Below are positions 35,691-37,659 of a stretch of 37,668 nucleotides of DNA, piece after piece. Location: positions 1 to 37,668 of the forward strand of contig NZ_POTZ01000011.1 of NCBI RefSeq assembly GCF_003236365.1. The letters run 5' to 3'. Source of the DNA: Streptomyces sp. NTH33. GTDB taxonomy: Bacteria > Actinomycetota > Actinomycetes > Streptomycetales > Streptomycetaceae. The notes under the pieces were generated by a model. That model was not told where the DNA came from and searched no databases. It saw only the letters and a list, made by a program, of their open reading frames with translations. The translations under genes were made by a program, and so were the position numbers. The stretch's first letter is position 1, and each line of letters opens with the position of its first letter.

Positions 35691-36791
35691 TCAGCGCAGC
35701 CGGGGGCGGGACCTCACCTCGGCCCGGTCCGCCGCCTGGGCGCCCTCCGTCCAGCCGGCCTCGTCGGTCACGCCACGCAGGCGGGTGGTGGCCGTCTCCG
35801 GGAACATGCGGTCCAGGCGGTCGGCGACCGCGACGTCCCGGCTCGCCAGGACGGGGAGCAGGTCCTCGGTGACCTGGGCCTCGGCGGCGGCCGCGAGGCG
35901 GGTGCCGATGCGGTGGGCGTAGGCGGCGAGGAAGGACTGCCGGAAGGTCCTGGTGCGCCTGCGCCCGCTCGCACGCTGTGCCGCCTCCGCCCTGGTCATC
36001 GCGGTCGTGGCCTGGACCAGCAGTGAGGTGTGGAGCAGTTCGACCGCTTCCAGGTCGGCCTCGAAGCCGACGACCGTGGAGAAGCCGAGGGGTTCGTTCC
36101 ACACGGCCCGGCAGTGGTTCGCCGTGGCGACCGCGTCCAGCAGCACCGCCTTGGCCTGTTCGTACGGCGGCTCGACACCGATGCGGCAGGCGCCGGGGGC
36201 GTCGGGTGACGGGGCACGAGCGGCGAGCAGCGCCTCGTCGATGCTGTGCTGCGCCATCAGCTCCTGCGCCTTCGTGCTCAGCGCCTCCGCCTCCTCCGGG
36301 AAGCCGGTCGCCTCCGCCTTGGCGAGCAGCGCCCGGATCCGGGTCAGCATGCGGGACTCGGGCCGGGGCGCGTGCGCGGACTCGTCCAGGGGTTCGAGCG
36401 CGGGCAGCCGCAACAGCAGGCGGTACAGCTCCAGGACGGCGGTGGCGTACGAGAAGCGGTCGGTGCGAGGCGGTTCCTCGGTGGTCAGCTCGTCGAGCTG
36501 GGCGGCCCAGCGCGGGCCGCGCGGCCGGTCGTGCCCCGCCTGCGCGCGGACGAGCGCCGCCAGCAGCCGTACGTGGACGTCGTCCAGTTCCCGCCGCGCG
36601 ATCCGTACGACATCGGCGGGCTGCCAGCCGCGTCGCCACGCCGCCGCGACCAACTCCTGCCCGCGCCGGGCGAGTTCGGCGTCCGCCGCGGGGTCGGCCG
36701 CCAGCAGGGAGGCACCGGTGTCGAGGGCGTCGTCGGAGGAGGCGTACAGGGCGGCGTCGAACGCGCGGTCGACAGTGCTGGGGCTGGTCAC
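35691..36791 (-). CDS. DUF2786 domain protein
   Basis: A 366-aa cytoplasmic protein. The DUF2786 core is at about 148-185: LTRIRALLAKAEATGFPEEAEALSTKAQELMAQHSID. An Ala/Arg-rich N-terminal region and a helical C-terminal half flank it; the latter includes NHCRAVWNEP and GFEADLEAVELLHTSLL, seen in longer members of the family. Function unknown; the family occurs in actinobacteria and in phage-related proteins. It is divergent from the HTH-Clp_N gene, whose promoter operators lie in the 115-bp gap. Confidence 0.85.
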   Translation of the reverse strand: MTSPSTVDRAFDAALYASSDDALDTGASLLAADPAADAELARRGQELVAAAWRRGWQPADVVRIARRELDDVHVRLLAALVRAQAGHDRPRGPRWAAQLDELTTEEPPRTDRFSYATAVLELYRLLLRLPALEPLDESAHAPRPESRMLTRIRALLAKAEATGFPEEAEALSTKAQELMAQHSIDEALLAARAPSPDAPGACRIGVEPPYEQAKAVLLDAVATANHCRAVWNEPLGFSTVVGFEADLEAVELLHTSLLVQATTAMTRAEAAQRASGRRRTRTFRQSFLAAYAHRIGTRLAAAAEAQVTEDLLPVLASRDVAVADRLDRMFPETATTRLRGVTDEAGWTEGAQAADRAEVRSRPRLR

Positions 36792-36859: not shown

Positions 36860-36904
36860 GTCAACTCACGGTTGACGCTGCCCCTGCGTCAACCTACGGT
36901 TGAC
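36860..36904 (+). promoter_or_regulatory. promoter with two identical-type operators (HTH-Clp_N gene)
   Basis: Two inverted repeats, GTCAACTCACGGTTGAC (36860-36876) and GTCAACCTACGGTTGAC (36888-36904), have centres 28 bp apart. The first overlaps -35 TTGACG (36872-36877). After a 17-bp spacer the second contains -10 TACGGT (36895-36900). TACGGT is 6 nt before the ATG, so the transcript is probably leaderless. The layout fits repression by steric blocking. Confidence 0.85.
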
Positions 36905-36906
36905 AC

Positions 36907-37659
36907 ATGACGAACCCCGCCATCAGGTCGAACATCCGTCTGGACGACCTCATCTCGGCCATCAAAAAAGTCCACCAGGAGCCCCTCGACCAGCTCCAGG
37001 ACGCCGTACTCGCCGCCGAGCACCTCGACGAGGTGGCGGACCACCTCATCGGTCACTTCGTCGACCAGGCACGGCGCTCCGGCGCCTCCTGGACCGACAT
37101 CGGCAAGAGCATGGGCGTCACCCGGCAGGCCGCGCAGAAGCGGTTCGTGCCCAAGGAATCGGCCGACCTCGACCCCAGCCAGGGCTTCAGCCGCTACACG
37201 CCACGCGCGCGCAAGGTCGTCATGGCCGCCCACGAGGAGGCCAAGGCGGCCAGGAGCGCCGAGGGCACGCCCGCCCACCTCGTCCTCGGCCTGCTCGGCG
37301 AACCGGAGGCCATGGCCGCCCGGGCCATCGCCGACCAGGGCGTCTCCCTGGAGGCGGTCCGCGAGGCCGCGACCGCCGCCCTGCCCCCGGCGTCCGCCGA
37401 CGCCCCCGAGCTCGTCCCGTACGGCCCGGCCGCCAAGAAGGCCCTGGAGCTCACCTTCCGCGAGGCCCTGCGCCTCGGCCACAACTACATCGGCACCGAA
37501 CACATCCTGCTGGCCCTGCTGGAGCTGGAGAACGGCGAGGGCGTCCTGAGCGGCCTCGGCCTGGACAAGGCACGCACCGAGGAGTACGTCGCGGCGGCCC
37601 TGGCGAAGCTGATGGAGGACCGCGCGCAGCAGGAACAGGGAGACGGGCACGAGGGCTGA
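36907..37659 (+). CDS. HTH plus Clp N-terminal domain protein
   Basis: A 250-aa protein without AAA+ modules. Residues about 25-80 form a helical region with a helix-turn-helix-like segment (SWTDIGKSMGVTRQAAQKRF). Residues about 92-240 carry two Clp_N repeats: FSRYTPRARKVVMAAHEEAK with TPAHLVLGLL, and YGPAAKKALELTFREAL with GHNYIGTEHILLALLE. Clp_N normally binds substrates or adaptors on ClpA/ClpC. A stand-alone copy joined to a DNA-binding segment could act as a regulator that senses or feeds the Clp system. The twin operators at its own promoter suggest autorepression. The ATG is fixed by the -10 and stops at 37659. Confidence 0.88.
   Translation: MTNPAIRSNIRLDDLISAIKKVHQEPLDQLQDAVLAAEHLDEVADHLIGHFVDQARRSGASWTDIGKSMGVTRQAAQKRFVPKESADLDPSQGFSRYTPRARKVVMAAHEEAKAARSAEGTPAHLVLGLLGEPEAMAARAIADQGVSLEAVREAATAALPPASADAPELVPYGPAAKKALELTFREALRLGHNYIGTEHILLALLELENGEGVLSGLGLDKARTEEYVAAALAKLMEDRAQQEQGDGHEG

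Follow-up and report, generated by a model that had tools for sequence, protein, structure and literature searches.

The window (the whole stretch of DNA analysed, 37,668 nt) carries on its forward strand a 250-aa open reading frame preceded by two 17-bp palindromic sites. The features of this locus are the following:

35691–36791, − strand: divergent DUF2786/DUF7168 gene (Pfam), sharing its intergenic stretch with clpC2
36860–36876, + strand: distal operator GTCAACTCACGGTTGAC (sequence scan)
36872–36877, + strand: inferred −35 element TTGACG, within the distal operator (direct reading)
36888–36904, + strand: proximal operator GTCAACCTACGGTTGAC (sequence scan), with a 2 nt gap to the ATG
36895–36900, + strand: inferred −10 element TACGGT, within the proximal operator (direct reading)
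36907–37659, + strand: clpC2 orthologue, 250 aa, predicted leaderless start at 36907 (ORF; PDB matches 9p2p, 8b9o, 8ad9 and 8ada)
36940–37077, + strand: N-terminal helical dimerisation region, residues 12–57 (homology to 8ADA; model helices 12–22, 26–37 and 43–57)
37090–37146, + strand: helix-turn-helix, residues 62–80, recognition helix 73–80 (structure model; conservation; common to HTH-only and zinc-finger relatives)
37186–37620, + strand: C-terminal domain of two Clp_N repeats, residues 94–238, the ligand-binding domain in ClpC2 (Pfam Clp_N; fold Z 22–23 to 8b9o and 8ad9)
37459–37473, + strand: codons 185–189, which include R185 and R189, two arginines proposed in the literature to contact DNA (conserved in 51/52 and 52/52 orthologues)

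The sequence-only reading of this DNA had described a helix-turn-helix (HTH) joined to Clp_N repeats without an ATPase, and the 250-aa frame has this make-up: Pfam recognized Clp_N in two stretches (E 1.2e-21) and found no AAA+/ATPase family, so that the protein does not class as an AAA+ ClpC/ClpA unfoldase. Pfam named no HTH in the window protein, and in its relatives HTH matches were sub-threshold only. The full-length structure model (pLDDT 92) places helices at residues 62–69 and 73–80; a separate model of the N-terminal 86 residues was of low quality (pLDDT 67), and the matches listed in full-length fold searches all fell on the Clp_N half of the protein. Residues 84–243 resemble the ClpC2 structure 9p2p (E 2.4e-79; the literature searches made found no paper describing this structure), residues 92–236 resemble 8AD9 (E 4.3e-41), and residues 9–71 resemble 8ADA, an N-terminal fragment of Rv2667 (E 8.3e-29). 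The closest named orthologues come from Streptomyces (~77%), which makes this genus the most likely source of the window. The locus combines the features that mark ClpC2: an 8ADA-like N-terminal domain, a Clp_N pair without AAA+, R185 and R189, and an operator of the form (C)GTCAAC-n5-GTTGAC(G) located 1–2 nt before the ORF, with a second copy upstream. Judged by its sequence, the gene belongs with mycobacterial clpC2 (Rv2667) as its Streptomyces-type orthologue, and the regulator tied to Clp proteolysis that had been suggested is ClpC2, given that both protein and operator match the published circuit.

Both GTCAAC-N5-GTTGAC sites (36860–36876 and 36888–36904) are free of mismatches in their 12 arm positions, and the only differences between them are at bases 1 and 2 of the 5-nt centre, in line with the earlier description. 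They lie 28 bp apart, start to start, and the half-sites of each palindrome are separated by 11 bp, or one turn of DNA; the proximal site is flanked in the window by C and A. TTGACG, the right arm of the distal site, is followed after a 17 bp spacer by TACGGT in the proximal site. A leaderless start of clpC2 is expected, since the A of the ATG (36907) lies 7 nt past TACGGT. Direct reading of the sequence therefore agrees with the earlier placement of twin operators over the −35 and −10 of a leaderless gene, the promoter itself being a prediction. A scan for consensus sigma-70 promoters found none upstream of clpC2, because TACGGT matches TANNNT only, an actinobacterial −10 form.

Single sites with up to two mismatches are not rare, with three in the window against 0.92 expected from shuffles, whereas the genome scan that had been suggested as a check found the exact pair only once in the 7.86 Mb source genome, at clpC2. 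The reversed-pattern control gave no match in samples of 118, 59 and 236 genomes. A large regulon in the source genome was rejected: exact GTCAA-N7-TTGAC occurs at five places, against three for the reversed control. Two of the five are at clpC2; another (L089, contig C173) is a single GTCAAGAGAGAGTTGAC site 59 nt before a further HTH-family gene, which runs for 157 aa before the fetched stretch ends, and the remaining two lie inside a MarR-like ORF (L004) and ~245 bp before a CobD-like ORF (L003), both families being assigned by eye. With one mismatch allowed, GTCAAC-N5-GTTGAC has 25 sites in this genome and 8 in the control. The divergent DUF2786/DUF7168 gene might also be affected by ClpC2, since it starts ~70 bp from the distal operator.

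Conservation of the operator and a wider HTH family

Among 80 loci fetched, 51 (L005–L055) match over the HTH part and, together with the window, form a set of 52, which excludes the other 29 (L056–L084), in which the match does not begin before residue 38. Conservation of the sites with orthologues had been named as a check, and it holds: both sites are exact in 41 of the 52, carry at most one mismatch each in 49, and stay within two mismatches in all 52. Taken singly, the distal site is exact in 46/52 and the proximal site in 43/52, with at most two mismatches in 52/52 for either. When the 75-bp upstream stretches were base-shuffled, none of 10,400 shuffles had both sites at one mismatch or fewer. 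Centre bases 2–3 read TA in 51/52 proximal sites versus 1/52 distal ones, as expected if the proximal site doubles as the −10. The −35/−10 spacer is 17 bp (36 loci) or 18 bp (16 loci), and the site-to-site spacing is 28 bp (36) or 29 bp (16). Because the start codons of the 52 were picked adjacent to the site, the distance to the ATG follows in part from this choice; many of these loci have the Met next to the site as the first residue of the protein match.

In a class sample of 118 genomes, the N-terminal domain was matched at E 1e-6 in 30, and strongly (E 1.5e-26 or better) in 25. The exact twin occurs in 21 of the 118, all of them within the 25 strong-match genomes (control 0). In the other four strong-match genomes the sites are also paired, with 1-mismatch sites in two and exact sites at 23-bp spacing in two, so that all 25 have a site pair before the matched gene. 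At L107 (G035) and L108 (G012), clpC2 carries both operators exact and 23 bp apart versus the usual 28–29 bp, so the overlap with the −35 and −10 must differ there.

A relaxed twin pattern, searched for in 236 genomes of the class, occurs at 65 places spread over 62 genomes (control 0); all 65 were fetched, the window locus being L002. The twin is followed by an HTH-family gene at 61/65 places (59/63 by profile, plus L131 and L132); because the HTH profile was built from ClpC2 orthologues, only the non-ClpC2 places form an independent test. In 56 of the 61 the reading frame begins 2–4 nt past the site, and in the other five the HTH gene comes second, after a small membrane protein. The largest share, 53/65, stands before clpC2-like genes: 48 by text pattern, plus L131, L132, L148, L173 and L182. 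The last three have the HTH and failed the Clp_N text pattern; L173 and L182 show a Clp_N motif by eye, and L148 has a shortened end. The 12 non-clpC2 places divide into eight before HTH genes of other make-up and four without an HTH (L100, L101, L102 and L142).

The other make-ups are varied. L141 (G281:C397) encodes a ClpX C4 zinc finger joined to the HTH (Pfam zf-C4_ClpX, E 2.5e-14; among the zinc-finger–HTH loci Pfam was run on L141 only). HTH-only proteins stand leaderless behind the twin at L149 and, beyond these eight places and 88–95 aa long, at L110, L120 and L129. At L143, L144, L146, L147 and L150, a small membrane protein and an HTH gene form an operon under a leaderless twin-palindrome promoter, the HTH gene ending in a C-terminal domain that contains WEHRR or WEHKR. 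Pfam named no family for this domain in the two of five operons tested, and a DUF2812-like label was dropped for want of such a match. L145 is a weak match (E 5e-4), with the HTH 738 nt past the site.

Several side observations belong here. L135 (245–619, + strand) and L141 both encode a ClpX C4 zinc finger with a ClpC2-type HTH and have GTCAAG-N5-CTTGAC palindromes just before the start codon; at L135 the second site of this type is degenerate. Such a ClpX-zinc-finger–HTH protein may be to ClpX what ClpC2 is to ClpC1. L137 has the HTH followed by a stretch that is zinc-finger-like by eye, and no operator was seen there. L144 (G200), one of the five membrane-protein operons, comes from the genus of the source genome. 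At L102 (G072:C128) the twin sites are mutually reverse complementary and lie beside a leaderless methyltransferase gene, and the 4 kb fetched there contain no gene of the HTH family.

In 79 control pieces the HTH profile matched only L037up, a mis-cut piece that contains clpC2, and L089. The HTH does not in turn imply the operator, since none was found at 8 of 11 distant HTH relatives (weak N-terminal-domain matches; all but L131, L132 and L135). The common factor behind the twin operators is the HTH, and the twin operator appears to be a signature of this HTH family.

A FAD monooxygenase behind the same operator

The genus of G031 is called Nocardia-like, as the named loci nearest to its ClpC2 belong to Nocardia. 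In this genus 57/59 genomes have one exact twin or more (control 0). Thirteen of these genomes have more than one site, 27 sites in all, of which 24 were fetched (G131:C250, G166:C1:4835028 and G168:C1:437437 were left out). Ten of the 24 lie before clpC2 and 11 before a gene for a FAD monooxygenase; of the other three, L119 is cut by a contig end, L120 stands before an HTH-only gene and L127 before neither. The monooxygenase set comprises:

L100, L101, L110, L113, L115, L116, L121, L124, L125, L128 and L129: FAD monooxygenase loci behind the twin operator

A homologue of the monooxygenase was found at E 1e-140 in 21/59 genomes, a threshold that missed those of G131 and G166 (L125 and L128), both with the twin. 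Upstream of 20 homologues, we found the twin (each site with at most one mismatch) in 15, a single site in one and no site in four; all 15 homologues with at least 68% identity have the twin (15/15). By sequence, the nearest solved relatives of the enzyme are tetracycline destructases, the closest being Tet(51) (E 8e-27), and with 112 and 125 bits against the cut-off of 550 bits in NCBIfam NF033476 it falls outside the tetracycline destructases as defined there.

By the HTH profile, an intact HTH gene is absent from the fetched stretch in 9/11 monooxygenase loci; L110 and L129 have one, L116 has a fragment, and the stretch at L125 is short. Since nine of the 11 loci lack an intact HTH gene, ClpC2 acting in trans on the monooxygenase would be the simplest reading, and with the same twin operator in front of the enzyme (15/20 homologues) ClpC2 probably has targets beyond itself. 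As side observations, the gene across the site from the monooxygenase is an HTH-only gene at L110 and L129, and at L101 it is a PEP-utiliser mobile domain ORF whose start resembles that of the HTH-only protein. Among the papers searched, none joins ClpC2, the monooxygenase and Nocardia.

Proposed circuit, its reader domain and known systems

The available sections of a 2023 report on mycobacterial ClpC2 (PMC10030653) describe, from EMSA, reporter and knockout evidence, a protein that represses its own promoter via CGTCAAC-n5-GTTGACG located 1–2 nt before the ORF. In many actinobacteria this operator is repeated upstream, over the −35 and −10 of a leaderless gene, and both sites can be occupied simultaneously. 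Cyclomarin A, a product of the genus Streptomyces, lifts the repression, with a 263-fold rise of the mRNA in M. smegmatis, and derepressed ClpC2 acts as a sponge for the ClpC1-targeting peptide, which gives protection; the response to heat is mild, about twofold at 45 °C in M. smegmatis (PMC10030653). Three ClpC1 drugs were compared in M. tuberculosis, and desoxycyclomarin was the only one that increased ClpC2; ClpC2 also engages unfolded protein (PMC12913811, available part).

From the sites, the gene, its domain make-up, the conservation and the co-occurrence of operator and HTH observed here, and from the binding, autorepression, cyclomarin release and protection demonstrated in mycobacteria (PMC10030653, available sections), we infer that the HTH is the reader, that the whole circuit holds in Streptomyces and that a ligand acts on it there. 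The explanation we favour, with a probability of roughly 0.85, is that the window encodes a Streptomyces-type ClpC2, which as a dimer would repress the leaderless promoter of its own gene, read the palindromes through its HTH, be released by a ClpC1 ligand and then serve as a sponge. The HTH of the N-terminal dimer domain (residues 62–80) would engage each palindrome, whose half-sites are 11 bp apart, and two ClpC2 dimers over the −35 and −10 would shut out RNA polymerase. The C-terminal Clp_N pair would act as a copy of the N-domain of the ClpC1 unfoldase: once a ClpC1-targeting peptide, or unfolded protein, occupied it, the dimer would come off the DNA, clpC2 would be derepressed and the newly made protein would soak up the ligand.

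Residue 172, which aligns with ClpC1 F80, is Tyr in the window protein and 19 other orthologues and Phe in 12/12 mycobacterial ones, while F94 (aligned to Mtb F96) is present in 52/52 orthologues. Changes at ClpC1 F80 weaken the action of cyclomarin (PMC6395927, available part). Since Tyr172 occupies the position matching ClpC1 F80, the Streptomyces ligand may differ, and the inducer there may be another molecule than cyclomarin. The same residue, together with the twofold induction at 45 °C (PMC10030653) and the engagement of unfolded protein (PMC12913811), would suit a signal of unfolded protein in Streptomyces, from heat or proteotoxic stress, with ClpC2 as a titrated holdase-repressor and not an antibiotic sensor. 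This reading deserves attention, but we hold it to be doubtful on balance: induction by cyclomarin reached 263-fold in M. smegmatis (PMC10030653), and the Nocardia-like genomes, with the same operator in front of a FAD monooxygenase, would point to xenobiotics.

The favoured reading gives the HTH a task that the available text of PMC10030653, in which the terms “helix-turn-helix” and “HTH” do not occur, assigns to the helix of the C-terminal domain that holds R185 and R189. The N-terminal crystal 8ADA covers residues 4–72 (PMC10030653), and in the alignment it ends at ...SWSDIGKSMGV, with V72 inside the HTH and short of the recognition helix. Ten residues of the HTH region (W62, I65, G66, G70, V71, Q74, A75, Q77, R79 and F80) are invariant in the 52 orthologues; R185 (51/52) and R189 (52/52) are conserved likewise, so conservation inside ClpC2 is not decisive for the reader. 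Beyond ClpC2, the window protein has the family core W-x2-[IVL]-G-x3-G-x3-QA-x3-R, six columns of which are invariant in 15 chosen members of varied make-up. Since the twin stands before an HTH-family gene at 61/65 places, including those where the HTH has other partners or none, the N-terminal HTH is most likely the operator reader, and the HTH call of the sequence-only reading is probably better than the published domain assignment.

That the C-terminal Clp_N domain reads the operator through the R185/R189 helix, with the N-terminal domain only dimerising, is improbable in our view. The R185A/R189A change lowers binding in EMSA and the matching M. smegmatis mutant raises the mRNA twofold (PMC10030653), and both arginines are conserved in ClpC2; yet twin operators of the same kind stand before HTH genes without Clp_N, and L131 and L132 have Asp in place of R189 and keep the operator, with 1–3 arm mismatches over the pair. 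The ClpC1 of the source genome also has the first arginine (the R185 position), and ClpC1 binds DNA weakly and with little specificity (PMC10030653). Moreover, the dimerisation mutant R57A, whose residue adjoins the HTH, derepresses 4.6-fold versus 2.0-fold for the double mutant (PMC10030653). The effect of the published arginine mutants may reflect auxiliary contacts or stability. If the HTH reads the DNA, the C-terminal domain would be free as a sensor, fitting release by a ClpC1-binding drug.

A separate regulator that binds the twin sites, with the encoded protein merely its target, gains some room from the fact that ClpC2 binding in Streptomyces is argued by analogy with mycobacteria, but the EMSA of mycobacterial ClpC2 on the same motif (PMC10030653) and the co-occurrence of twin sites with the HTH family at 61/65 places make it very unlikely. 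A new stress circuit unrelated to known systems hardly merits consideration: the twin site is unlike CIRCE, HAIR and the ClgR box, as compared by eye with the HrcA/CIRCE, HspR/HAIR and ClgR consensus, but protein, operator and architecture match published ClpC2 (PMC10030653).

A new operator class was likewise rejected on the literature match to the ClpC2 operator (PMC10030653, available sections); a literature text search on the operator site letters gave noise among the matches listed. The earlier proposal of a Clp-linked regulator was therefore right in kind and not new, as self-repression via exactly this operator is published for mycobacteria, and its general stress circuit gives way to a published drug-sensing sponge with a mild, about twofold heat response (PMC10030653). 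For the window itself this leaves little that is new beyond the extension of the mycobacterial circuit to Streptomyces. New here appear to be the HTH as DNA reader, the monooxygenase as a target and the operator as a signature of the HTH family; among the literature matches listed, neither the shared twin operator nor the ClpX-zinc-finger–HTH fusion is described in titles or the starts of abstracts.

More tentatively, and in our estimate a little short of even odds, these findings may be joined in one reading, in which the twin palindrome marks a whole family of HTH proteins in Actinomycetes, each repressing its own leaderless gene, with varied sensors and unfoldase-domain decoys, and ClpC2 also controls the monooxygenase in trans in Nocardia-like genomes. 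Each HTH would be paired with its own sensor: in ClpC2 a copied ClpC N-domain, elsewhere a copied ClpX zinc-finger N-domain or, in the operons behind a small membrane protein, an unnamed domain; some members would have no sensor. Members with unfoldase domains would be decoy-sensors of the unfoldase’s own input domain, and ClpC2 as a single repressor would free two products at once, the drug sponge and an enzyme that is a candidate for drug modification. The operator is usable as a search key; the ClpX-zinc-finger–HTH fusion and the conserved FAD monooxygenase target that it yielded could show by what means actinomycetes detect and inactivate antibiotics directed at unfoldases.

Compared with known systems, the window protein shares with mycobacterial ClpC2 (Rv2667 and its M. 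smegmatis counterpart) the N-terminal dimer domain, the C-terminal Clp_N pair and the lack of an ATPase, and the loci share a twin CGTCAAC-n5-GTTGACG over the −35 and −10 with a leaderless ATG just past the proximal site (PMC10030653, available sections). The window protein differs in Tyr at residue 172, and several Streptomyces loci have T...A, not C...G, as site flanks. RelI antitoxins, ClpC2 and DUF3887/DUF2812 fusions have already been grouped by their HTH (PMC13284704); RelI (Rv2664) neutralises a toxin, and in the available text of that paper, from which the words “operator” and “palindrom-” are absent, no operator is described. HTH profile A2 matches RelI 9sdc (E 3.9e-16) and also finds 8ADA, its other 11 matches being mostly designed helical proteins or weak. 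The N-domains of ClpC1, ClpA and ClpB have the Clp_N fold of the window protein (Z ~16–22), although these are AAA+ unfoldases, whereas the window protein has an HTH and no ATPase. TetR-type antibiotic repressors offer an analogy, as ligand-released repressors to which ClpC2 may be compared and which in Nocardia-like genomes would apparently be matched also in control over a FAD monooxygenase. In contrast to the TetR type, Pfam shows no TetR domain in the window protein, and the sensor of ClpC2 copies the drug target’s own domain.
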